Assembly (NCBI GenBank): GCA_021234155.1
Contig: JAJEKV010000004.1
Coordinates: 29,729,305-29,793,304 of the forward strand
Length of the DNA: 64,000 nucleotides
Direction: 5' to 3'
Origin: Isoetes taiwanensis
Lineage: Eukaryota > Streptophyta > Lycopodiopsida > Isoetales > Isoetaceae
The notes beneath the pieces were generated by a model that was not told where the DNA came from, ran no database searches, and was given only the letters and a program-made list of their open reading frames with translations. Both the position numbers and the translations under genes were made by a program. Positions 25,188-62,235 of this stretch are shown here, piece by piece. Positions within the stretch are counted from its first letter, which is position 1. Each line of letters opens with the position of its first letter.

Positions 25188-26345
25188 CTATTGCATAGAA
25201 TCCATGACATTGACAATAACGGATACTCCATAGATGTTTTTGGTTGCATAGAATCCATGAGATTGACTAATGGATACTCCATAGGATGTTAGTGGTCTGT
25301 AAAAAATTCTAATAATACAACCTTTATGATACCTTCTGCTTTGCTGTAGCTTAGAATAAGATTGTCCTAATTCTTGTTTGTGGTTGCATAGAATCCATGA
25401 CATTGACAATAACTGATACTCCATAGAATGTTCGTGATCTATAAAGACTACTATTCGTAGAATATGATATTTTCTGCTTTGTTGTAGCTTAGGATAAGAT
25501 TGTCCTAATTCTTGGCAGTGCACATTGAGAGTGCAATTGTCGTAAATATGGACATACATTAAGACAAAGGAGATTATTAGATCAGCACGCTTGAGCCAGT
25601 CTTGTTGATAAAGGCTCTCCCTACATTGGCAGTTCAATGAACAATAAAGATCGGAATTGTACCTTGGTGTTCGATTTTCTTTATGTTTTACTTTCTTCTA
25701 TTTTAATCCTATGCCTATAGAATGGCAAACACTTCTGGGGAGGCATTCTTAGTGCATCTTTCCGCAATCAATGTAGTAAGGCTGTTTTGTTTGTAGATCT
25801 GTTAGTGCTTTGCTGTAGTTAAGTGCTTTGCTGTAGTTAGTTTCTGTCCTAACGTTGTCTTAATTCTTGGTGGGTACATTGAAAGTGTACTTGCTGTAAA
25901 TATGGACATACATCAAGAATGAGGGGAGATCATTATATCAGCAAGCTCAAGCCAGTATTGTTAATAAAGGCTTTCCCTACATTGGCAGTTCAATCAGCAA
26001 CAAAGGGCCATAATAGTACCCTGCTGTTTGTTCTCTTATAGTTTTTCTCAATTCAACTCAAATCCATGTAGCATTTTCTATAGATATTGCAGCTTCTAGA
26101 ATGTGTTTTCTTTCAGTCAAATAAACAGGTTCAGTCAAATAAACAGGTTCTTAAAGACACTTGTGTTCATAAATATGTGATATGAGTTTAGTTGTGCCTT
26201 TGCTGTAGTTAGTTTCTTTTGTCCTAATTCTTGGTGGGTACATTTGGAAGTGTGCTTGCTGTAAATATGGACATACATCAAGAATCGGGGGAGATTAATA
26301 GGTCAGCACCCTTGAGCTAGTCTTGTTGATAAAGGCTCTCCCTTA
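25188..26345. repeat. Degenerate direct repeats, several families
   Basis: A 40-bp block (ttgcatagaatccatgacattgac...) occurs at about 25190, 25242 and 25383. A longer unit of about 160 bp (gctgtag...tcctaattcttgg...gtaaatatggacatacat...ctctccctacattggcagttcaat) occurs at about 25475-25640, 25845-26005 and 26200-26345 with clear divergence. A 149-codon minus-strand frame here (25637-25188) is a by-product of the repeat. No transposon ends were found. Confidence 0.7.
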
Positions 26346-35144: not shown

Positions 35145-36260
35145 GAGGAGTGTAGGCACCTGTGTAAGATCTTGTGACAACGTGCATTAAATGGTGTCCT
35201 CTTAGCGTAAGGAGCACGCTAAGATTTTGAATTTGAAGGGGAACCTTCGTGAACACACATTTGTCTTATAGATACTTGAACTTTGTTTTCTCCATCTTCA
35301 TTCAGAGCTCCTTGAGCATCCTTTGTTCATACAAGTTATACACTCTTAAACTATTGTAAATCCACACAAAAATAGAGTGTACAATTGCTTTTTATTTCAA
35401 TATTAAGCAACAAGCTCGCCCTAATATTAAGCAACAAGTTTAAATCTAAGGCCAAGTTTTTTAAATCAAAGTGTATTAAAATAATACAAAATCTTAGGGG
35501 GGTTGGGATTCATGCACCCAGTATCTCTGTGAAACAAAACATAGGGCAGAGCATTCTCGCTCGAAGCAAAAACATTTTCGAACTAAGTCTTTCTGAAATC
35601 GGGCAGAGCATTCCTTGGCTCAGGTTTTGTTTCCCTCTCTCACCTTTGCCATAAAAGAAATAAAATATTCTGGGTCGCCCTATTCTGGGTCGCCAAATCG
35701 CGGCTCCTGATCATTGCCTGACTGATGATCTTTTCTGGAATTGCTGCTCGAATGGCTGTAACGGATTGATCCCTGTTAGTTGCATGAAAAAATCCTCTGG
35801 CCTTGCTATGAAGTTAGAAGAATCCCTTGTTATGAAGAATGCAGCAGCAGGATCAATTGATCCTCCAGGCCCCAGTTATCTCCTCTGTGGTCTCCAACCA
35901 GCTCTAAATGGATTAAAAGTCGTCGTAGAGCAGATTTGAGATGCAGCAGCAGAGCAAAGCTTTCAACATTGTGTTTTGCAAAAAGATCGGATGAAGTAAA
36001 AGAATAAGAAGCCCTGCCATTTTCTATTTGGGCCTCTGTTGTAGCAAAGCTCTGCCTTTTCTACTTGGGCATCTCTTGTAGCAAGAAAACAATTAAATCT
36101 TTGCGTTGCTTAATATTCTGTTCTTTTATTCATTATATGTTTGGATAGTTTCTTACTCATCTTTTTTGTTAAAAAGGGTCAAGAAAGTAGTGCTTAGACA
36201 TTGTAGAGGTTGGATCATGGGATTCCCTCTATTTTTTCTTGTCAATGCATTATGTTATAG
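35145..36260. other. Spacer and possible 5' region of the recombinase gene
   Basis: No gene is recognised. A direct doublet (tattctgggtcgcc) lies at 35669-35696. An 89-codon frame (35385-35654) shows no motif. A spliced 5' UTR for the next locus could lie here: ttatgttatag at 36250-36260 is a fair acceptor. Confidence 0.45.
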
Positions 36261-38102
36261 GATTGGAGATGCTGAGAATGCTGCCTGGAGGCTTGCAGGC
36301 ATGGATTCGACTCCAAGATTTGATCTGCACATCTCTCAAGCTGCTGGCAGTTCTGAAATTTCTGTTTTAAGTGATATAACTAACATGCAGGACGAAGATG
36401 CTAGCTTTAAAACTGAGTTTTCTGATGATGCAATCACAAAATATCTTGAAGAAGCAGAATCTAATGGGCATCTAAGTGTGCTAGTTCCATGTGAAAGGGA
36501 GAAAGAGAATTCTGGGAAACAGGCAGCAGTTCCCTTTTTGGAAATCGATAATGATTTGCTGCAAGAAGTTCGTAGTGGCGGCATTAGCAAGTCTGAGACA
36601 AAAATGCAATGGGCGAGGAGGCGGTTTGACTGTTGGAGGGTTCATGTGAATATTCCTGTTGATAAAAAAATTGAGGAACTCGATTTGAAAGAGTTTGCCA
36701 GCATGTTGGAGTTATTTATGCTTCAAGTTGTGAAGCTAGATGGATCAATGTACCCACCTGAAACGTAAGTTGACATTCTTTTATTTATTTGACATTCTTT
36801 TATTACCTCTTACATTCTTTTTTGCAGTCTTCAAGACTTGTTTAGAAGATTTGGATGCATGATTCGACGTGAGCAGGAGTGGAAGATTGCAGAAAGTGGT
36901 ATAGAGGAGTTTCCTTTCAATATTAAGTATTCTGTTGTTTTCACGCGGGCAAGGCTTGCGTGTGTTGTGTCTATGAGGAGATCGAGGATGACACCAGGGT
37001 TGTGTAAAACAAGGAAGAAAGTAGATGAAATTTCATTCGCCAACGAACAGGCCCTTCTGTCCGATGTTGACCATGGAATTCAACATTCCGTTGGTCTGCA
37101 AAAGAGGCTTTTATTTTATTGTGTATCCAGATTTGGTATTCGGGGTCAAGAGGAGTTGGAAGGTCTGAAGGTGGTCAATTTTGAGATAGGAATGGAAAAT
37201 GGAAGGAGTACGTAGAATATAATGAGAGGTTGTCAAAGCAGTATGACGTAAGCATGGACAAATACCAAGAAGAATCCTTTCGGATGCCGCTTCGTGTTTA
37301 TGAAGACGATGTAATTGTGACCTTCAAACAATTTTTCTGCCATTACCCTTACACGACTCCTGATGATGACTGGTTATTCAGGCAATCATTTCACCACGTA
37401 AACAGTAAATAATTTTTTTTTGTATTTCATAATAGCTTTTATTTTTAAAACTTAAACTGTTTTAAATCTTGCAGGCTTGGTATAATGTAAAGCATAAGGT
37501 TAGTGGCCGAAAGATATCACAATGGCTGAAGTACATGATGAAACTTATAGGAGTTGATGGCTCTTTCAGTGGAAAGAGTGGACGGACGACACTAGTTTCT
37601 AGGTTGTCATGAGCTGGTGTACCAATTAATATTGGTATGAAAGTTACTGGACATCGCAGCATGGAGGCTTTTCAAAGGTAATTATTGTACAATTTTTTGT
37701 CATGTTTTTTTATTTTTGTAGCTTCCCTAATTAATTGCATGTTCTGCTATATTCAGGTATGATAAAACTGCAGATTTCCAAGTGAAGGCTGCAATGGAGA
37801 TAGCTGGCAAGCCGTTCGATACAATTGGATCTAGAAGGATGTTTGAAGCAGTCTATAAGGATGAGCTTAATGCGTACGATAAAGGGCAGTTTGGGGAAAA
37901 TGCTGAAGCTCCACATGGTAGTCCTGTATCTTCTACATCTGCTTCAATAATTTCTGCTCCAGTATCAGGTTCTACATCAATGGTAGATGCTGTTAAGGAA
38001 GTTCATGTACCTAGTATCGATGTACCAGGGCCTTTAATCTCACATGCAGATCTGCGGAAAGAAGCTGAAGATGATACATTCTTAAATGATCATTGTGGAT
38101 GA
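36261..38102 (+). pseudogene. Crypton/DUF3504-type tyrosine recombinase with three introns
   Basis: Exons are 36261-36764, 36828-37397, 37475-37677 and 37757-38102 (GT-AG throughout); the likely start is ATG 36301. After an acidic N-terminal region comes a core-binding-like domain (WARRRFDCWRVHV, then LQDLFRRFGCMIRREQEW). The catalytic domain has box I FGIRGQEELEGL (Arg plus Glu-Leu, as in tyrosine recombinases), an RMPLRVYEDD strand, a box II SGKSGRTTLVSRL with Arg, then TGHRS and the nucleophile QRYDK. The order R-KxxR-H-Y matches tyrosine recombinases; the usual His of HxxR is Lys here. The layout is like Crypton elements and the ZMYM/QRICH-type DUF3504 domain derived from them. Two lesions are present: a frameshift near 37200 and TGA at 37610-37612 (a CGA to TGA change is likely). 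The C-terminal tail is Ser/acidic. The reaction would be site-specific DNA strand exchange. Confidence 0.82.
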
Positions 38103-39582
38103 TCTGGAAAAGGTGGTGGCATCACATCGGTTTAGTGGTGTTGTAGGGAAAACATTTCATAACTGTGTCTTCAATTTCAAGTGAAGGTGTCTTAAGTACT
38201 GGATCTTGCTGGATATTTTTGATACTCTGTTGGATATTACTGATACTCTTGCTGGATATTACTGGATGTTGCTGGATATTGCTGGATATTTCTGATATTT
38301 CTAGTGTTCTGATATGTGTTTTGTTAATATGATTCAGTTCATATACTGAAGATGAGCATGTAAATTGTATAACTGAGATAATTAATATGTGATTTTGTTT
38401 CCAGCATTGAATGATTTAATTTGAATGTGTTTTAAGCTTTGATTATGCCTTGTAATTCAAGAGCTTTGTATTTCATTATGCTTTATATTTGTTTTGAACA
38501 AGTTTTGTATTTAAAGTGTGAATCTGGAATGCAAGTAAGCAATCAGGAATGTCTGTAAAAAATCAAGAATGCAAGTAAGCAATTAGGAATGTCTGTAAAA
38601 AATCGGAATGTAAGTAGAAACATAATGCAAGTAAAATACTTAACATTCCTGGAAATGAAACTCGCCACGTGTCATCACCACATTGGAACTCAGGGCAGGA
38701 TGACACGTAAGTGTTGTTTACGGGCAAGGGCCTGGCAAGCTCGGCAGGGCGAGCCTGGTCCACACCCCGCGTATCTCTCACGTAAAGTTGGGGGGGGAGA
38801 ACATTTCACTGCCATATGGCGCTGTCGCAACCACAGAACTTCAGTTAATCCGTTATCAACCAAAGACTGGAAGCATCGAAGGAGAGGAAGACAGCATCGG
38901 AGGAGAGGAAGCGAGCCGCAACAGATTATTTGTTTTAAGATGGGTTTGATATATGGCGAAATGTTCCCCCCCCTAACTTTACATATGGGGAACCTTCAAA
39001 TGGTGAAGGTTCGCTAACGGGGCCTTCCTCACCTCCAAATTACCTCATCCCCTGAATCCCTTGCAGATCCGGCAAGCTAAGCTATGGCGATGGATCCGCA
39101 AGGCTGCTATGGCGATGGCGTGCAAACCACTATCAAGAAATCCAAAACAGAAATATGTAGTAATTTTTCTGTGCAACCCCATTTCCAAGTGAGGCCAGAC
39201 TATGGGGATACAGATCCCTGGGCTACAACGATGGAGGTTCCTTGGCTAAAAACTCTGCAGATCCGCTCCATATCTGGTCGAACTATTGCTTCTTCTATTA
39301 TAAACAAGCGATGGATTTGTTCTTCAATTCCTGTTGTTTCACTGCCAAAATAGAGCCATACGAGACAACAAGGCTGGTGTCCCAACATAGTCTAAGCGTC
39401 CTGTTGCGATGCCTGTTGAGAATCTTGTTTGCGGTGCCGCCAGAGCTGCACCACACAAAAGCCACCCAAACGTCACCTGGAAAAAGAAAAAAAAAGAAGA
39501 AAAAAGGGACTATAATCTAAGGTAATTTGGGGGTGATGAAGGTTATGCATGTCTAACTATCCCCTTCAAATGACATGGTGTA
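38103..39582. other. 3' flank with ctggatatt repeats and a short foldback
   Basis: A ctggatatt/ctgatactc minisatellite lies at 38205-38310, just past the recombinase stop. The segment 38781-38806 (gtaaagttgggggggg...) pairs with 38960-38986 (...ccccccctaactttac), an inverted repeat with about 150 bp between the arms. Direct repeats of aatcaagaatgcaagtaagcaat lie at 38520-38585. No gene was recognised among the short frames. Confidence 0.5.
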
Positions 39583-39731
39583 GATAACGCCCTGGTCTGA
39601 GGACGTTACTGAAAATAAAAATTGAGGGCAATGTGGCCATGGCCAAAATGGCGAGGGTGAGCCATTTTGGCCATGGCCATATAGCCCAAAATTTTTATTT
39701 TGCAATAACGCCCGAGGGCTAGGGTGTTATC
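39583..39731. mobile_element. 149-bp palindromic MITE
   Basis: The ends are gataacgccct and agggtgttatc (inverted). The arms match along most of their length, and the centre is a perfect 19-bp hairpin (39634-39652 with 39661-39679) around an 8-bp loop gagggtga. The whole element would fold into one long stem. No flanking duplication was established. Confidence 0.75.
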
Positions 39732-41110
39732 GCTCTTAACACTCTAGTTTGAGGGTTTACGTCGCTTTCTATTTCGATGAAGCTCTATTGGAAGCCTCAG
39801 AGATTGAAGGTTGCATTCCAGCCATGGGTCAACTTATAAGGGTAGACCATACTTTCTTTCCTGAGGGCATATTTTTGTTGCCCTTTTTGGAAAGGTTAAA
39901 ATGTTATCAACACTTTTAATTTCAAGGTACAATGTAAACTGCCCTTATTTACTACAAAATCGTTATAAAACAACATTTATCTATCAAAGCACATATTTAT
40001 AGAAAACAAAGTAATTTCTATTTCAAAAAAACATAGCAGTTTATATATTTATAAATATCATCATAGCTTATATGCATGTGAGTTCAAAAAAGGATTAGAG
40101 TACGAAACAAGACAAGGTAACTTTCAAAGATACAGTTCCCCAATACGCCTCTCCTTCGCATTCATCTATCCCTTGTAAATAGATGACCAATCAACTTCTT
40201 CCATGTTCCTCAGACCGTTTAATGATATAATAAATCTAAGCTTTTGAAGCTCAATCTACTTCTATCATCATCTTTGATGCTATTCAATTTTGAGAAACCC
40301 CTTTACATTCCACTATAGAGTCGGGATCACTAAAATCATTTGCGATAACTTCTTCATTTCAGGATATAATTGGCCTAACTCCAATTCAAACCCCCTAAAA
40401 AGCCAAGCCTCATTTTAAGATCTTCTTGGACAATGGACCATCATTCTTAAAGTGAAATCCATGTACTCAACTCTACATTTATCCATCAATCCTTCCATCG
40501 AGAGAGCCAATAAACACCTCCATCCATTTGTCACATATTTTAGCATGCACATCATCATCATCAAGATCTTTTACATAATTAGGAGGAGAGAATATATTTT
40601 CAAGGGAGCGGTCGAGGCTGATCTCTATTAGAATTGGCAATAGGGGTTGCTAAGGTGCCATTTATAGAAGCACTACTGCTATTCAAAGCACTTATACTAT
40701 TTGATGCATTAGCATGTGAAGCCAGATCACCTTCTTGAAAGACACCCTCACTAAGAGCCAAAGAGTTAACATGCAATGCCAAATTTTTTCGCTGCATCGC
40801 CATGGATACATGAGATTTTGCAGGTAATTTAGAAATTGAAGCCATTCCTTCTAAAAGGGCCGAAATCTGTCAGAGCCAAAACGACTATCACTTAGAATCT
40901 AAACCTATAATGCCACACATCATCGGAAAGAGCTCTGAATCAGCTTTTCAATGAGATAAAAATACCAAAATACGAGGTCGGTAGCTCAAGCTATGAACAC
41001 AGACGTGAAGCAGACTCCGGCAAAAACCCTACCAGGGCAGTCCATCCACTCTCTTTCATGTCCAAAGATACTAAAACTATGGTGTGACGTGCTTTAATTT
41101 TTACTTTGGA
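39732..41110 (-). other. Unassigned, possibly decayed coding DNA
   Basis: A minus-strand 81-codon frame (40845-40600; MASISKLPAKSHVSMAMQRK...) and broken coding-like stretches to its left suggest an old element, but I recognise no domain. The rest is AT-rich with nothing supportable. Confidence 0.35.
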
Positions 41111-42202: not shown

Positions 42203-43311
42203 AGCAGGTAATAACTGTGAAAGGCGATTCGTCAGCAAAGACGATTTATGTTTTTAATGGTACTGGATATCCAGGTTGGAAAAGAAAAATAAAGTGTGCT
42301 TGATTTTAGCGCCCGAAGCAACCAGTGCAGGGTGATCAATTGGTCACTTCTGGAAAAGATTTTGACGCGTGGGTAAAAGAAGAAGAACAGTGGAAAATTA
42401 AAGATCGTGCAGCACGGCGTTTATTAGTTTATGGATTGAAAGATTCGATCCATGCGGATGTTGATCAATTTGTTACGTCTAGTGAAGTCTGGAATTATTT
42501 GGAACAAGTCTATAATAAAAGAACGAAGCAAGAAGTACTTTTCTTAAAGAGGAGTTTAGCAAATCTTCAGTTTGATTCGTCGATTACTGTACGAGAACAT
42601 ATTGACCGTTTCAAAGAGATTGTCGAACAATTAGCTGCAGCTGGTGCACCTATATCAAAAGATGAGTTAGTTATGCAGTTATTAGAAACTTTTCCGTCTT
42701 CTGAGTTTGGGGTGATTATTTCCATCTTAATGAATAAGAAAAACATTTCTTTTGAAGATGCTTGTGAATCCTTAGAGGATCATGTGCGGCGTATTGTTGC
42801 GCCTCCTATTGTTAAAGATGTTGCTATGGTAGCAGATACACGAAAGAGACAAAGTTCTTCTGAATTTACTGAACAACAAAAGAAAAGGTTTCGGTTTTCT
42901 CGTGGTTATTATGGAGGTGGTGGTCGTGGGTATGGTCGTGGTTATGACAGTGGAACATATGATTCGTATGGTCGTGGTCGTGGTGGTGGTGGTGGTTATG
43001 ATGATCGTGGTCGTGGTAGTGGTGGTCGTAGTGGCCGTGTAGGCTATGGACGTGGTCGAGGGCCACGTGGTTATCAACCTTATGCATGTGATTATTTTGG
43101 TCGGCTTGGTCATGGAATTGCAAGATGTTATGATAGACAAGATGATGAGAAGCGGGCTGCTGAAGCTAATTATGTTAGCATGTCACGTGATGTTGAGCGT
43201 TATGATGTGGACAAGCCTAGTGGACCTTCTGTTCCACCTAATACAAGTGTTCTAGGGAGTACTGATAACATGATGATTGATTCAGGTGTGCATCATGTTC
43301 CTTCTAAATAA
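42203..43311 (+). pseudogene. Copia Gag with UBN2-type domain, RGG tract and damaged zinc knuckle
   Basis: The Gag frame is open from about 42316 to 43311. Its first part upstream (YVFNGTGYPGWKRKIKCA) is followed by stops near 42301-42308, so the N-terminus is frame-broken. The capsid-like region includes WNYLEQVYNKRTKQEVLFLK and EIVEQLAAAGAPISKDELVM. A long Gly/Arg/Tyr tract (residues 190-245 of the frame) follows, then CDYFGRLGHGIARC: the second Cys of CX2CX4HX4C is Phe. The frame ends IDSGVHHVPSK-stop, that is, it enters the protease active site and stops inside the intron-like segment described separately. Confidence 0.85.
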
Positions 43312-43353
43312 GTGAGAACTATTGAGTAGTGTTGATGTGATGTGGTGGTGTGA

Positions 43354-43397
<44 letters not shown>

Positions 43398-43536
43398 TGT
43401 TGTGGTGATATTTGTATGTTTATTTCGAGTTTTTTGTTGGAATAAAAGAAGAAACAAGTGTGTGTTTTATTATGAAGCAATATCTGGTATTTGAGTTTGG
43501 ATTTTATATTTATTTTGTGTATTTTTGTTGGCATAG
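43286..43536 (+). promoter_or_regulatory. Intron-like 251-bp segment at the protease active site
   Basis: The upstream frame reads IDSG and the downstream frame reads GATQHMVFEKSL. Removing 43286-43536 (CAG|GTGTGC ... TTTTTGTTGGCATAG|GT) restores DSGATQHM in one frame. Splice-like borders, a T-rich 3' end and the exact codon join support an intron. It contains a run of about 38 A (43358-43395). Unspliced RNA would make Gag only (stop at 43309-43311), spliced RNA Gag-Pro. A nested insertion with AGGTG at both sides is the alternative. Confidence 0.65.
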
Positions 43537-44218
43537 GTGCTACTCAACATATGGTGTTTGAGAAATCCTTGCTTAGAAATTATCATCCTTTGCGTGTTTT
43601 GAAGTATGTTTATATGGGTGATGATAGTCGCCAACAAATTCTTGGAATTGGTGATTTGCCATTACAAGCTCGTTCAGGGATTCATTTTCTCCGTGGTGTA
43701 TTACATGTGCCTGCCTTACATCGTCATTTACTTTCAGTTTCTCGCTTAACTGATGTTGGGATTCATATCTACTTTGATGAACTCTTTTGTTATCTTTTAA
43801 AAGATGGCTTGATTCTTGTACTTGGTATGCGTCATCATAATCTATATGAGTATAAGATCACGATGATCTGATTTATGCACTTCATCAGAAGAAATTTTCG
43901 ATGGAGATTTGTGGCATGGACGTTTTTTTTGTCATGCGTCTTTTGCAAAGATTATTGCATATGAAAAAATACGGTGTTGTGCATGGTTTTTCGATGGATT
44001 CAAGAGCGGTATTAGCGCCTTGTGAAGCGTGTGTACTTGGTAAACCTTGTAGGCATCCTTTTAATCATGTTGCTCCTCGTGCATCATCTATCTTAGAGTT
44101 GGTTCATATGGATCTTTGTGGGCCTTTACCACGGTCACTTGGTGGTGCCGTTTATTTTCTACTGATAATTGATGATTATTCACGTTATTGTTTCATCTAT
44201 GCACTTAAGAAGAATAAG
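43537..44218 (+). pseudogene. Copia protease and N-terminal integrase
   Basis: The protease continues from GATQHMVFEKSL through GIGDLPLQ and LHVPALHRHLLSVSRLTDVG. The GAG-pre-integrase motif LWHGRF-CHASFAK is readable at 43911-43950 but frameshifted. The integrase has zinc-binding CEACVLGKPCRHPF and the first catalytic Asp in HMDLCGPLPRS, then DDYSRYCFIYALKK. The frame is cut by the 452-bp insertion that follows. Confidence 0.85.
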
Positions 44219-44319
44219 TAGCATAATAACAGGGGGTTCCAGGGGGATTTCATATGGATGTTAAAATGACAATTCTTAGAACCATAGGCCATATATTCCT
44301 AAGATAATTGAATGGGTTG

Positions 44320-44351
<32 letters not shown>

Positions 44352-44670
44352 CATAGACTCAAGATAGAAAATAGTTACATGAGCTCATAGAGAAATGTTG
44401 GTTAATGTAGACTTATCAGGATATTGAGTTTTTTTGGTAGAGGTTCAAGACCCCGTATTACATCTTCTAAATCCGTATACAAAGCCGTATAGAGTCTCGA
44501 TATCGCATCAAAACCTTAGGCAAACTCGTATTTGACATTTCAAAATCATAGGAAACCCCATCATAACTGAGCATAAGCGAAACGAGAGGCACCCTGAGGC
44601 TCCAACATACAATATGGGCCGTAGGATCGACAGATCCAACGACTGTGGTAGTTCAGGGTGCACCCAGTTT
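44219..44670. mobile_element. 452-bp insertion in the copia integrase, 8-bp duplication
   Basis: agaataag occurs at 44211-44218 and 44671-44678. Joining across it restores the integrase reading. The insert begins TAGCATAATAACAGGGGG and ends GGGTGCACCCAGTTT, without clear inverted ends. It contains about 28 A (44322-44350) and a B-box-like gaggttcaagacccc (44446). An 8-bp duplication fits hAT; the A tract and B box would fit a SINE. The class is undecided. Confidence 0.75.
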
Positions 44671-44678
44671 AGAATAAG

Positions 44679-45600
44679 TTTTTGCTACATTTTGCAAATG
44701 GAAAGCCATGGTGGAATTACAAAAGGAAAAGACTTTGAAAAGTATCCGTAGTGACAATGGTGGTGAATTCAAAAATAATGAGTTTGATTCTTTTTGTGCT
44801 CATGCTGGTATTTTGCGAGAGTATACAGTTCCTCATACACCACAACATAATGGGGGTTCTTTGGCGTAAAACCGAACTGTTTTAAATGCTATTCAAGTAT
44901 GTTACTTCATTCGGGTTTGGATGTAAAGTTTTGGGCTGAAGCAGCAAGTACAGCTTTATGTTCAGAATTGTATATCTTCTTCTTCTGTTGATGGTTTAAC
45001 ACCATTTGAGGTATGGCATGGAAAAAAGCCTACAGTTGAACATTTTAAAGTATTTGGATCTCAGGCTTATGCTTATATTCCTAAGGAGAAACGGACTAAG
45101 TTGCAGCCAGTTGCTCAAAAGGTTGTCTTTTTAGGTTATGCTGATAATGCACCTGCTTATCGACTATTTGACTTGGTTTCTGGAAAGGTTGTGTTATGCC
45201 GCTATAGAGATACTGTTGTTAATGAAAATGTTATGATCCAATCTCCTTCGCAATCTAATGATCATGATCATGATGTCCTATCAAATTTTCGTGAGTATTC
45301 TGATGAAAATATTTTCAATGAGAGTGGTGTTGAGAAAGTACCGTCACATCAACCTTCTACTTTACCTGATATCTCGGATTTACCTGATAGTGTTGGAGGA
45401 GAATATGAAGATTTATCTGATCAGTTACATGAGAATATTATTTCACTAGATGATCATTACACTATACCACCTGAAGATAATTCTGCACAATCCTCTAGAG
45501 TTATGTCTCAACAAGAATTTCATGACACTTTCGTGATTACTAGGCAGGCCCTCCAATTACTTTGCGTGATTATTATACTTTTGTGTATGCATCGAGCCTG
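44679..45600 (+). pseudogene. Copia integrase C-terminal half and linker
   Basis: It resumes after the insertion with WKAMVELQKEKTLKS, then the second catalytic Asp (SDNGGEF). The third catalytic site, normally NGVSERKNRT, reads NGGSLA-stop-NRT, so the Glu is lost and the integrase is dead as assembled. FGSQAYAYIPKEKRTKLQP and VFLGYADNAPAYRLFD mark the integrase C-terminal domain. An Asp/Ser-rich linker leads to a frame break near 45550. Confidence 0.85.
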
Positions 45601-47172
45601 AGCATACTATTCATGATGCTCTAAATTCTGATGAACGTGAACATTGGCAACAAGCAATGGATGCTGAATATCATTCTTTGATAAGTAAAGGCACTTGGGA
45701 TTTAGTACCTCTTCCTTCTGGACGTAAAGCTATAAAATGTAAGTGGGTTTTTCGAGTTAAAACTAAAGCAGATGGTACTTTTGACAGATTTAAAGCAAGG
45801 TTGGTTGCAAAAGGGTTTTCACAAATTGCTGGTGTTGATTATCATGAAACATTCTCGCCTGTAGTGCGTCTTGCCACTGTGCGTGCTTTGTTAGCATTTG
45901 CAGTTAATCATAATCTCTATATTCATCAAATGGATGTTAAAACAGCATTTCTAAATGGAGATCTTACAGAAGATATTTATATGGCACAACCTGATGGTTA
46001 TAAGGTTTCAGGTCAAGAGAATTTGGTTTGCAAATTAAGGAAAGCTCTGTATGGTTTGAAACAAGCATCACGTGCTTGGTATAAGAAGATGCATGCATTT
46101 CTTATTTTCGATGGTTACTTTACCCACCATCGCCGATGCAAATCTTTATTATAAAAAAGTTGGTGCTGTCTTCACTTTCATTGCGCTTTATGTTGATGAC
46201 ACTATTTTAGCATCGAATGATCTTCTGTTTCTTAATAAGTGCAAGGCCAGTCTTGGAGCTGCGTTTGATATGGTTGATCTTGGTTCTATCAAATCTTGTC
46301 TTGGACTTCAAATAGAACGTCAAGAAGGTTGCATAAGATTGAGTCAACCAAAATATATTTCTGAGTTACTTGATAAATATGATATGACTAATGCTAAGCC
46401 TCAGTTAACACCATTGGGGCCTAATGTTAAGTTGACTAAGCAGATGTGTCCTCAAACAGAAAGCCGGCGTCTTGATATGGCTAACTATCCATATGCAAGT
46501 CTTGTTGGTGCTTTAATGTACTTAGCACATGCTACGAGACCAGATATAAGTTATGTTGTTAACACATTGGGACAATTTATGTCTAATCCAGGGCGTCAGC
46601 ATTGGAATGCAGCTAAACGAGTTCTTCGCTATCTTAAAGGCACTATAAATTATGCTTTGACATATGCTCGTCAAGATATAGGTTCTCATGGTTCACAGTT
46701 GGTTGGTTATATTGATGCGGATTGGGGAGGTTGCCCTGATACTTTTCGTTCCACAAGTGGTGCATGTTTCTTTATAGATCATTCTTTGATATCTTGGTAC
46801 AGTAAGAAACAACATTGTGTTGCGGTGTCTACTACTGAAGCAGAATATGTTGTAGCTAGTATGGCAAGTAGAGAGTTGATATGGTTACGGCGTCTACTTC
46901 AATCTTTTCAGCAAGTTTTGATTAGCCCAACAGTTTTATATTGTGATAATCAAAGTGCTATTTCGTTGACTAAGGATGAGGTTTTCCATTCAAAATCTAA
47001 GCATATTGCGATTCATTATCACTACATTAAATTGGAAGTCAAGAAGAAGACAATTGTGTTACAGTATTGTCCTACAGATAATATGATAGCAGATATATTT
47101 ACTAAAGCATTATCTACGGCCAAGCATGAAGATTTTACTAGTCAGTTGCGGCTTCTTAATTCTTCTACTTAG
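45601..47172 (+). pseudogene. Copia reverse transcriptase and RNase H
   Basis: The RT begins HWQQAMDAEYHSL and has KWVFRVKTKADGT, FKARLVAKGFSQ, and MDVKTAFLNGDLTEDIYM. A short deletion and frameshift near 46125 separates it from the palm motif LYVDDTILASND, which is intact. The RNase H part keeps YIDADWGGC, AVSTTEAEYVVAS, CDNQSAISLTKD and the HIAIHYHYI block, ending TKALSTAKHEDF. The second frame (46140-47172) has no stop. This is the best-preserved part of the element and shows how young it is. Confidence 0.9.
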
Positions 47173-57475: not shown

Positions 57476-60000
57476 TGGCTCAAACATGCCACCTAGGCTC
57501 AAACATGCCACCAAGGTGGCTCCAACATGCCACCTAGGCTCCAACATGCCACCAAGATGGCTCCAACATGCCACCTAGGCTCAAACATGCCAAGGTGTCT
57601 CAAACATGCCACATGGGCTCCAACATGCCACGCGGTCTCCAACATGCCACCTAGGCTCAAACATGCCAAGGTGGCTTTCAACATGCACCAAGGCTCCAAC
57701 ATGCCAAGGTGGCTCCAACATGCCACCTAGACTCAAACATGCCAAGGTGGCACAAATATGCCAAGGTGGCTCAAACATGCCACGCAAGCTCCAAATGCCA
57801 CATAGACTCCAACATGCCAAGGTGTCTCAAACATGGCAAGGTGGCTCAAACATGCCACGTGGCTCCAACATGCCACCTAGGCCCCAACATGCAAGGTGGC
57901 TCAAACATGCCGCCTGCCAAAATGGCTGCCAGGCGGGCTCGAACATGCCACATAGGCTCAAACATGCCAAGGTGGCTCACAACATGCCACCAAGGCTCCA
58001 ACATGCCAAGGTGGCTCAAACATGCCACGCAGGCTCAAACATGCCACCTAGGATTCAACATGCCAAGGTGGCTTAAATATGCCAAGGTGGCTCAAACATG
58101 CCACACGGCTCCAACATGCCAAGGTGGCTCAAACATGCCACGCAGGCTCCTACATGCAACCTAGACTCAAATATGCCAAGGTGGCTCAAGCATGCCACCT
58201 AGACTCTAACATGCCACCTAGGATTCAACATGCCAAGGTGGCTTAAATATGCCAAGGTGCCTCAAACATGCCACGCGGGCTCCAACATGCCGCCTGGGCT
58301 CCAACATGCCAAGGTAGCTCAAGCATGCCACCTAGGCTCGAACATACCACCTAGACTCAAACATGCCAAGCTGGCTCGAATATGCCAAGGTGGCTCAAAC
58401 ATGCCACGCAGACTCCAACATGCCACCTAGGCTCCAATATGCCAAGGTGGCTCAAACATGCCACCTAGGCACTAACATGCCACCTAGGCTCAAACATGCT
58501 AAGGTGGCTCAAACATGTCATGGGCTCTAACATGCCACCTAGGCTCCAACATGGCAAGGTGGCTCAAACATGCCACATGGGCTACTCCCAACATGCCACC
58601 TAGGCTCCAACAAGCCAAGGTGGCTCAAACATGCCACTAGGCTCAAACATGCCAAAGTGACCCAAACATGCCACACAGGCTCCAACATGCCACCTAGGCT
58701 CAAACATGCCAAGGTGGCTCAAACATGCCACCTAGGCTCCAAGATGCGACCTAGGCTCAAACATGCCAAGGTGGCCCAAACATGCCAAGGTGGCCCAAAC
58801 ATGCCATGCGGGCTCCAACATGCCACCTAGGCTCAAACATGCCAAGGTGGCTCAAACATGCCACCTAGGCTCCAACATGCCACCTAGGCTCAAACATGCC
58901 AAGGTGGCTCAAACATGCCATGCGGGCTCTAGCATGCCACCTAGGCTCCAACATGCCAAGGTGGCTCAAACATGCCAAGGTGGCTCAAACATGCCACCTA
59001 GGAACCAACTCAAACATGCGAAGGTGGCTCAAACATGCCAAGGTCGCTCAAACATGCCACGCAGGCTCCAACATACCAAGGTGCCTCAAACATGCCAAGG
59101 TGGCTCAAACATGCCATGTGGGCTCCAACATGCCACCTAGGCTCCAACATGCCAAACGTGGCTTAAGCGTGCCAAGGTGGCTCAAACATGCCACCTAGGC
59201 TCCAACATGACAAGGTGGCTCAAACATGCCATGTGGGCTCTAACATGCCACCTAGGCTCCAACATGCCAAGGTGGCTCAAACATGCCACATGGGCTCCCA
59301 ACATGCCACCTAGGCTTCAACATGCCAAGCTGGCTCGAACATGCCACTAGGCTGAAACATGCCAAGGTGGCCCAAACATGCCACGCGGGCTCCAACATGC
59401 CACCTAGGCTCAAACATGCCACCTAGGCACCAACTCAAACATGCCAAGGTGGCTCAAACATGCCAAGGTCGCTCAAACATGCCATGCGGGTGCCTCAAAC
59501 ATGCCAAGGTGGCTCAAACATGCCATGTGGGCTCCAACATGCCACCTAGGCTCCAACATACGAAACGTGGCTTAAGCATGCCACGGTGGCTCAAACATGC
59601 CACCTAGGCTCCAACATGATAAGGTGGCTCAAACATGCCATGTGGGCTCTAACATGCCACCTAGGCTCCAACATGCCAAGGTGGCTCAAACATGCCACAT
59701 GGGCCCCCAACATGCCACCTAGGCTCCAACATGCCAAGCTGGCTCAAACATGCCACTAGGCTCAAATATGCCAAGGTGGCCCAAACATGACACGCGGGCT
59801 CCAACATGCCACCTAGACTCAAACATGCCAAGGTGGCTCAAACATGCCACCTAGGCTCCAACATGCTACCTAGGCTCAAACTGCCAAGGTGGCTCTAACA
59901 TGCCATGCGGGCTCTAACATGCCACCTAGGCTCGAACATGCCAAGGTGGCTCAAACATGCCACGTGGGTTCCAATGCCACCTAGGCTCAAGCATGCCATC
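57476..60000 (+). repeat. ~20-bp minisatellite, left arm of the giant foldback
   Basis: About 2.5 kb of units alternating ggctcaaacatgccacctag, ggctccaacatgccaaggt and variants. Long open frames with repeated QTCHxGSNMPPRLKHAKVA are by-products of a unit length that keeps frame over stretches; they have no start context or domain. Confidence 0.95.
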
Positions 60001-61825: not shown

Positions 61826-62235
61826 GGTGGCCTAGGTGGCATATTGGTGCCTAGGTGGCATGCCTGAGCCACCTTGGCATATTGGAGCCTAGGTGGCATG
61901 TTGGAGCCCACATGGAATGTTTGAGCCATCTTGGCATGTTTGAGCCTAGATGGCATGTTTGAGCCACCTTGGCGTGTTGGAGCCCGTGTGGCATGTTTGA
62001 GCCACCTTGGCATGTTTGAGCCTAGGTGGCATGTTGGAGCCACCTTGACATGTTGGAGCCTAGGTGGCGTGTTTGAGCCACCTTGGCACGTTGGAGCCCA
62101 CGTGGCATGGTTGAGCCATCTTGGCATGTTGGAGCGTAGGTGGCATGTTTGAGCCACTTTGGCATGTTTTTGGCCTCGTCAAAACTTGACCTTGCTTACT
62201 TGGCATGCCATGTCACCACCTGGAGTGCCACATCA
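61826..62235 (-). repeat. Right minisatellite arm of the foldback plus repeated junction
   Basis: 61826-62165 is the reverse complement of the 57.5-60.0-kb minisatellite (about 340 bp). It is followed at 62167-62232 by a second direct copy of the junction at 61760-61825 (ttttggcct...aagtc-type block with cttacttggcatgccatgtc). The right arm is thus flanked by direct copies of the same 65-bp segment. Confidence 0.88.

Follow-up and report, generated by a model that had tools for sequence, protein, structure and literature searches.

The window, a stretch of 64,000 nucleotides from the quillwort Isoetes taiwanensis, carries on its forward strand a 5′-truncated copy of a tyrosine-recombinase transposon (36105..38721). 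The copy was delimited by blastn against 18 large loci: the furthest-reaching copies put the start of homology at 36105–36119, homology stops at about 38722 and the right terminus reads ...GTTGTTTAC at 38721. Its gene has four exons and three GT-AG introns (36765–36827, 37405–37474 and 37678–37756), placed by sequence reading. Exon 1 (36256..36764) holds the N-terminal part and the start of the core-binding region and ends at a GTAAGT donor at 36765. Its open frame opens further 5′, at 36097, and 36256 is not a fixed start. Exon 2 (36828..37404) encodes box I as FGIRGQ, with the arginine codon at 37141–37143. Exon 3 (37475..37677), compared with the relatives' rows, encodes GKSGR, with the box II arginine at 37583–37585, and TGHRS. 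Exon 4 (37757..38184) contributes QR|YDK, with the predicted catalytic tyrosine at 37758–37760. A preliminary description of this DNA had listed the same motifs (box I Arg, box II Arg, TGHRS and the QRYDK tyrosine) in the order of tyrosine recombinases, along with three spliceosomal introns; all of the motifs are present in that order, and the introns hold up as well.

The same description called the coding sequence near-intact and the locus a recent or domesticated gene. Two length differences, near 37200 and near 37378, shift the frame of exon 2 relative to three of three relatives. Exon 3 has an in-frame TGA at 37610–37612, its length being unchanged relative to the three relatives, and the reading of exon 4 falls out of step with them near 38060–38099. 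The TGA at 38100–38102, with which the interval of the preliminary description ends, is a premature stop; by eye, similarity to the relatives extends beyond it, in a different frame, as far as about 38184. This copy lacks both the left end and the 5′ part known from other copies. The coding sequence is thus not near-intact. The locus is a dead, decayed copy of a repeated transposon, and a single recent or domesticated gene is therefore not supported.

At the 3′ end, tandem repeat finder reports 5.9 copies of a GAATGYAAGTA-like repeat of about 20 bp (38521..38634). The right ends of other copies carry similar repeats by eye, and these subterminal repeats may be accessory binding sites. The right-end alignment defines a right terminal repeat, GCAGGATGACACGTAAGTGTTGTTTAC, at 38695..38721, with G as the next base. 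In other copies, the inverted partner of this repeat is found immediately inward of the left hairpin.

Searching the genome (1,658,258,908 bases in 1110 contigs) with exon 2 alone gives at least 152 matches at E≤0.001 (1276 candidates at first look, 150 scored), and the element thus belongs to a repeat family made up of several subfamilies; the further copies raised as a question by the preliminary description do exist. Copies having both ends are 3.0–4.1 kb long. One (L011) has an uninterrupted spliced frame of 666 codons. The coding exons of another (L014) are also open as read; two stretches of its row were bridged by eye, and the same letters were later found in the DNA with one Met missing. 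Among 45 unsaturated pairs, dN/dS in the recombinase region is 0.08–0.20 in 32 and 0.22–0.67 in the other 13, in a table that omits pairs with pS up to 0.1 and in which dS above 2 is unreliable. This pattern fits a protein maintained by selection while the family spread, with single copies decaying afterwards. By eye, recombinase subfamilies go with particular end repeats. Among the loci, L034 overlaps L026, and L035 adjoins L027. Short non-autonomous elements of 306 and 355 bp with the same end type occur inside a longer copy (L012, 5681–5986 and 6123–6477). At L041/L079 (C1039), the same hairpin occurs again about 3 kb downstream, in a nested or tandem arrangement.

A fungal or animal contaminant, which the preliminary description had named as an alternative source, is ruled out, because the copies lie in scaffolds of up to 53 Mb beside plant-type sequence and the window itself contains a plant snoRNA. 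The plant-type neighbor in L010 is a long frame that reads by eye as a PPR protein. The snoRNA is the H/ACA type snoR103 (25522–25628, barely above the gathering score), and a 138-bp tandem duplication at 25235–25514 adjoins it.

Profile searches connect the protein to tyrosine recombinases at scores below the Pfam cut-offs. Six pieces of the window gene searched alone give no Pfam match over cut-off. When the pieces are joined, Phage_integrase matches at 5.4e-4, below its 27.1-bit cut-off, and DUF3504 at 0.18, so that the Pfam identity put forward in the preliminary description reappears with nothing over cut-off. Single frames of relatives match DUF3504 at about 0.05 in three of five cases. 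Among seven spliced relatives, six match DUF3504 at E≤10 (best 7.6e-4, below the Pfam cut-off) and one (L014) matches Phage_integrase (2.9e-5, below the 27.1-bit cut-off); the full-length reading of L011 matches neither. Two PHROG integrase families match one member each (1.1e-6 and 2.4e-6). The L014 score and the number of exon 2 matches show that the motif set is beyond chance.

The alignment of relatives (A1) has Arg349 and Lys381 invariant in seven of seven rows, the rows after the first being template-anchored readings with insertions dropped. The histidine of HxxR is replaced by lysine (KSGR) in 11 of the 16 rows covering the position, TGH reads TGQ in six rows, and the RYDK tyrosine motif is present in the relatives' rows. 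In tyrosine recombinases, the ordered residues R...K...(H/K)xxR...(H/W)...Y have catalytic roles. Together with the sub-cut-off HMM scores, these sequences support a tyrosine recombinase of the DUF3504/Phage_integrase type.

A DUF3504 search of the genome at E≤0.001 does not find the window family. It finds two places, both over cut-off and both belonging to a second family of DUF3504 recombinases with introns: L093 (C31:88700-92700) and L094 (C606:41000-45000). The motifs of L094 are KxxR as NKTLR, then TGHKR and RNYD. In spliced reading, the second family matches DUF3504 at 1.8e-6 (28.5 against a 29.7-bit cut-off) and Phage_integrase at 1.2e-5. A profile of the first family recognizes the second at 1.5e-9 (an E-value for a handful of segments), which ties the first family to DUF3504. 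The earlier proposal of a DUF3504-type recombinase in a land plant is thus supported as to its substance, with HMM scores below cut-off and a DUF3504 genome search that misses the family. The same search of control genomes matches 0 of 14, in a set that may hold no plant. A protein collection whose plant coverage is uncertain yielded no homolog from a single sequence, the alignment or the second family, and a PDB sequence search found no relative. Six copies have, within them or next to them, eight other frames of at least 150 aa, none of which finds a Pfam family at E≤0.01. A reverse transcriptase is thus not recognized, and the scanned frames from copies match no Helitron family either. Elsewhere in the window, a near-perfect palindrome of about 150 bp (39582–39758) is 73% identical to the left part of L094, and both L093 and L094 have stretches similar to it near their other end. 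It is possibly a short element or solo end of the second family.

The ends of the elements are well delimited. The right boundary is sharp across nine aligned right ends, with L012 deviating, and the right end is a repeat of about 28 bp with the last letters TTTAC|. The left end lies about 0.7–0.8 kb upstream of the point at which the copy in the window is truncated (1.2 kb in L017). There, |GTATA leads directly into a palindromic hairpin of about 100 bp, seen in 12 of the 18 large loci. In its fullest plan, a 2x2 GA/GA loop separates an outer stem of about 30 bp from an inner stem of 8–9 bp; another GA/GA loop then leads to a stem of five pairs closed by a small loop. The strict GA/GA pattern occurs in 18 of 37 hairpins, one of them spurious; in the others the loops are shifted, paired or flipped. 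By eye, the apex is partially duplicated in L014, L031, L048 and L068.

A covariance model built on nine hairpins (R1) matches 42 of 66 loci at E≤0.1 and 39 at E≤0.01, the nine model-building loci included. The 24 loci that it does not match are likely truncated or represented by the wrong stretch, and the model has no match in the 64-kb window. In 37 of the 42 loci, the best match has the same strand as the element. Because R1 prefers the other strand in L012, L036 and, weakly, L062 and L071 (L070 is a tie), the hairpin loops flip. R1 also matches three of 20 right stretches: two of these matches fall on the end of another element, and the third is weak.

The stems show compensatory changes. 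In a nine-row alignment, its rows chosen by the GA/GA pattern, 99.2% of cells are paired and 12 of 29 pairs have changed on both sides; 0 of 500 shuffles reach the covariation score, and sliding the partner by 1–3 columns lowers pairing to 30–43%. In a 12-row count with rows chosen in the same way, 93.8% of cells are paired over both stems, compared with 70% and 66% for shuffled partners, a level reached by 0 of 2000 shuffles. Shuffles match the number of double-change positions in 11 of 2000 cases for the outer stem and 294 of 2000 for the inner stem. The hairpins were originally picked by complementarity, and pairing within a copy is thus partly selected for. The R1 search and the end-repeat test given next are fairer tests; the right ends used in the latter were themselves found via inner-repeat similarity.

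Next to the left hairpin, on its inner side, a stretch complementary to the right end was found in 10 of 11 copies (all but L026) and in 11 of another 20; the other nine of these are represented by 801-bp stretches that may not contain the end. The letters of stem and repeat vary among subfamilies and are complementary within each copy. A copy's own partner is the best one in eight of eight dissimilar copies and in 13 of all 16, and 0 of 5000 permutations reach either fit. The outer ends of the two repeats differ slightly: the right one reads TTTACG, the left partner often TTCACG or TCCACG. When the two ends are joined in silico, they fold as a single hairpin of 166–176 nt in 12 of 12 copies chosen from 16, with z scores of -15.7 to -21.4 relative to 50 base shuffles per copy. 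At least 25 of the 27–29 right-repeat bases pair with the inner repeat. The TTTAC|GT junction lies inside the stem, and the third base after the junction (A) is unpaired in 10 of the 12 folds.

Flanking sequences indicate where the elements insert. On the right flank, the first base is G in 24 of 25 copies and the first two are GT in 19 of 25. On the left flank, a pyrimidine stands at -1 in 29 of 30 copies and T at -3, -4 and -5 in 25, 23 and 20 of 30, a count that drops seven of the 37 hairpin loci for want of a clear G(T/G)ATA start (L020, L021, L037, L048, L051, L068 and L072). These base counts give TTTnY^GT as the target, a sequence similar to that of the joined ends, TTTAC|GTATA.

Two nested insertions allow the empty site to be reconstructed. 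In L012, the 355-bp short element lies inside the 3′ part of a longer element, and its joined flanks align straight across eight of eight uninterrupted copies, including the one in the window, with one base missing. In L031, an element has inserted into the left end of another, where the hairpin meets the inner repeat. With that insertion removed, the flanks meet at TGTAACGTGG, the same as in L015 and L033, and form an uninterrupted, normal left end; no base was therefore gained or lost there. Among nine both-ended copies searched over 200-bp flanks for a target duplication, eight have no repeat longer than 11 bp. The flanks of L011 do have a 28-bp repeat, its left copy seven bases off the junction, which conflicts with duplication-free insertion. 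With L011 as the exception, insertion is at TTTnY^GT and without target duplication, on the evidence of two reconstructed empty sites. A DDE-type transposon, considered as another possibility, is not supported, given the lack of target duplication and an integrase-like protein.

Our preferred reading, to which we assign a probability of about 0.6, is a Crypton-like tyrosine-recombinase transposon with several subfamilies and a foldable, integron attC-like attachment site in a circular form; the circle and its folding are the inferred parts. The tyrosine recombinase encoded by the intron-bearing gene would cut the element out as a circle. The right repeat would then be connected through the terminal hairpin to the left inner repeat, forming an attachment site (IR-R|hairpin|IR-L) able to fold into one long hairpin. 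The enzyme would recognize the paired repeats as binding arms, with the hairpin between them, and carry out strand exchange between TTTAC|GT and a target TTTnY|GT. The element would thereby insert without target duplication and retain the hairpin at its left end. Such a scheme builds on established features, namely the protein family, selection on the protein, the ends, their complementarity, the target preference and exact insertion; what we infer from them is that a circle forms, that its attachment site folds in the cell and that strands are exchanged on this fold. Excision as a circle and reintegration fit because there is no target duplication and about GT is common to target and ends. 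Since the hairpin is kept at the left end, exchange would take place on the right-repeat side only. The more specific proposal, that recombination proceeds through a folded, single-stranded hairpin like integron attC, and does so in an old and diverse land-plant transposon lineage, is tentative, and we would put it at somewhat short of even odds.

The family resembles several known systems in part. Like Cryptons, it has a recombinase of the DUF3504/Phage_integrase kind, no recognized reverse transcriptase and short non-autonomous forms, mostly lacks target duplications and has about GT common to both ends and the target. It differs in having 28-bp inverted repeats and a terminal hairpin, and the sequence shared by its ends is only G(T). 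The consulted portion of the Crypton survey (PMC3212892) lists animals, fungi and stramenopiles as hosts, and describes 4–6 bp terminal direct repeats with neither terminal inverted repeats nor long direct repeats. The terms hairpin and palindrom* have no occurrence in its text (PMC3212892). The family works in the manner of a Crypton, but because the described absence of inverted repeats does not apply here, we name it a Crypton-like variant and not a plain Crypton. Among the titles listed in searches of open full texts, none concerns a land-plant or hairpin-ended Crypton, and neither Crypton nor DNA transposon occurs in the text of the Isoetes taiwanensis genome paper (PMC8566536).

The likeness to integrons concerns the ends. 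There, a left-only hairpin, a short shared sequence, a mismatched hairpin and compensatory changes (the fold being in silico) recall the attC site. In integrons, the tyrosine recombinase acts on one folded strand of attC, a hairpin with mismatched and extrahelical bases; exchange occurs near G^TT, and the cassette retains nearly the whole hairpin at one end. The Isoetes element differs in being eukaryotic, in encoding its own enzyme and in having a longer hairpin, at the left end, and the use of a single strand by its recombinase is hypothetical. DIRS and Ngaro elements are likewise eukaryotic and encode a tyrosine recombinase. They carry a reverse transcriptase together with long repeats that are split or inverted, whereas the Isoetes elements measure 3.0–4.1 kb and have no reverse transcriptase match in the scanned frames. 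Helitron2 elements (Helentrons), as far as the consulted portion of PMC3627910 describes them, likewise have inverted repeats that are asymmetric, one of them with a hairpin on its outer side, and differ in their RepHel enzyme, terminal letters and target.

Concerted stem changes could arise from copying errors in the palindrome and not from selection on a fold. We consider it rather unlikely, though a real contender, that the family recombines as ordinary Cryptons would, on double-stranded DNA, with the 28-bp repeats as arms and the hairpin as a spacer or extra site that is a self-correcting palindrome. Arm motifs such as GAATGTC-N9-GACATTC do resemble paired protein sites by eye, the flipped loops and apex duplications show that the palindrome is copied with slips, and the inner-stem double changes are within reach of shuffled partners (the 294 of 2000 given above). 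What weighs against this is that the GA/GA loops persist as the stems change, in rows selected for this pattern, itself seen in 18 of 37 hairpins; copying slips alone are therefore not a ready explanation. Target and element are also identical over only about GT, compared with the usual 6–8 bp between arms in the consulted part of the survey (PMC3212892). The flipped loops and apex duplications, together with the near-perfect arms, would also suit a linear form with hairpin ends, in which the recombinase acts as a telomere resolvase and fold-back copying matches the arms and flips the loop. Replacement of HxxR by KxxR points the same way, KxxR being found in poxvirus topoisomerase and telomere resolvases. 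Yet the hairpin is at one end only, none of the three R1 matches on 20 right stretches is convincing as the element's own end, and both ends are precisely inserted at a short target; we regard this form as improbable.

Still less probable, in our estimation, is that a Helitron2-like rolling-circle element took up a recombinase gene and is the source of these ends. Helitron2 ends, in the consulted part of PMC3627910, do consist of a terminal repeat at one end and a repeat plus hairpin at the other, and Helitrons are plentiful in this genome (1813 candidates; 150 scored, all 150 over cut-off; the same search matches 0 of 14 control genomes, which may include no plant). The ends here read |GTATA and TTTAC|, however, and not TC/CTRR, with the target Y^GT. 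Moreover, purifying selection acts on the recombinase, by eye its subfamilies are associated with particular end repeats, and R1 has no match at three Helitron loci, where the stretches are short. Domestication of the recombinase gene, for which the well-formed introns and long open stretches might speak, is scarcely credible, being contradicted by the frame changes, the stop, the absent 5′ part and the repeated family.

Few eukaryotic DNA transposons are as poorly understood as Cryptons, whose ends are hard to define. In the Isoetes family, copies are numerous and their ends defined, the target is clear, empty sites are exact and the site shows compensatory changes, which makes the mechanism directly testable. 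If the hairpin is indeed the substrate, tyrosine recombination on folded DNA would reach beyond bacteria. A Crypton-like recombinase class would also join the mobile elements of land plants.

Other repeats lie further along the window. Long frames at 42310–47172 resemble by eye a Copia-type element, with a gag-like frame containing a zinc knuckle, a reverse transcriptase and RNase H. An array of about 132 copies of a unit of about 19 bp (GGCTCAAACATGCCACGTA) occupies 57477–59998, and an array of 38–76 bp units at 61830–62169 is related to GGCTCAAACATGCCACGTA.
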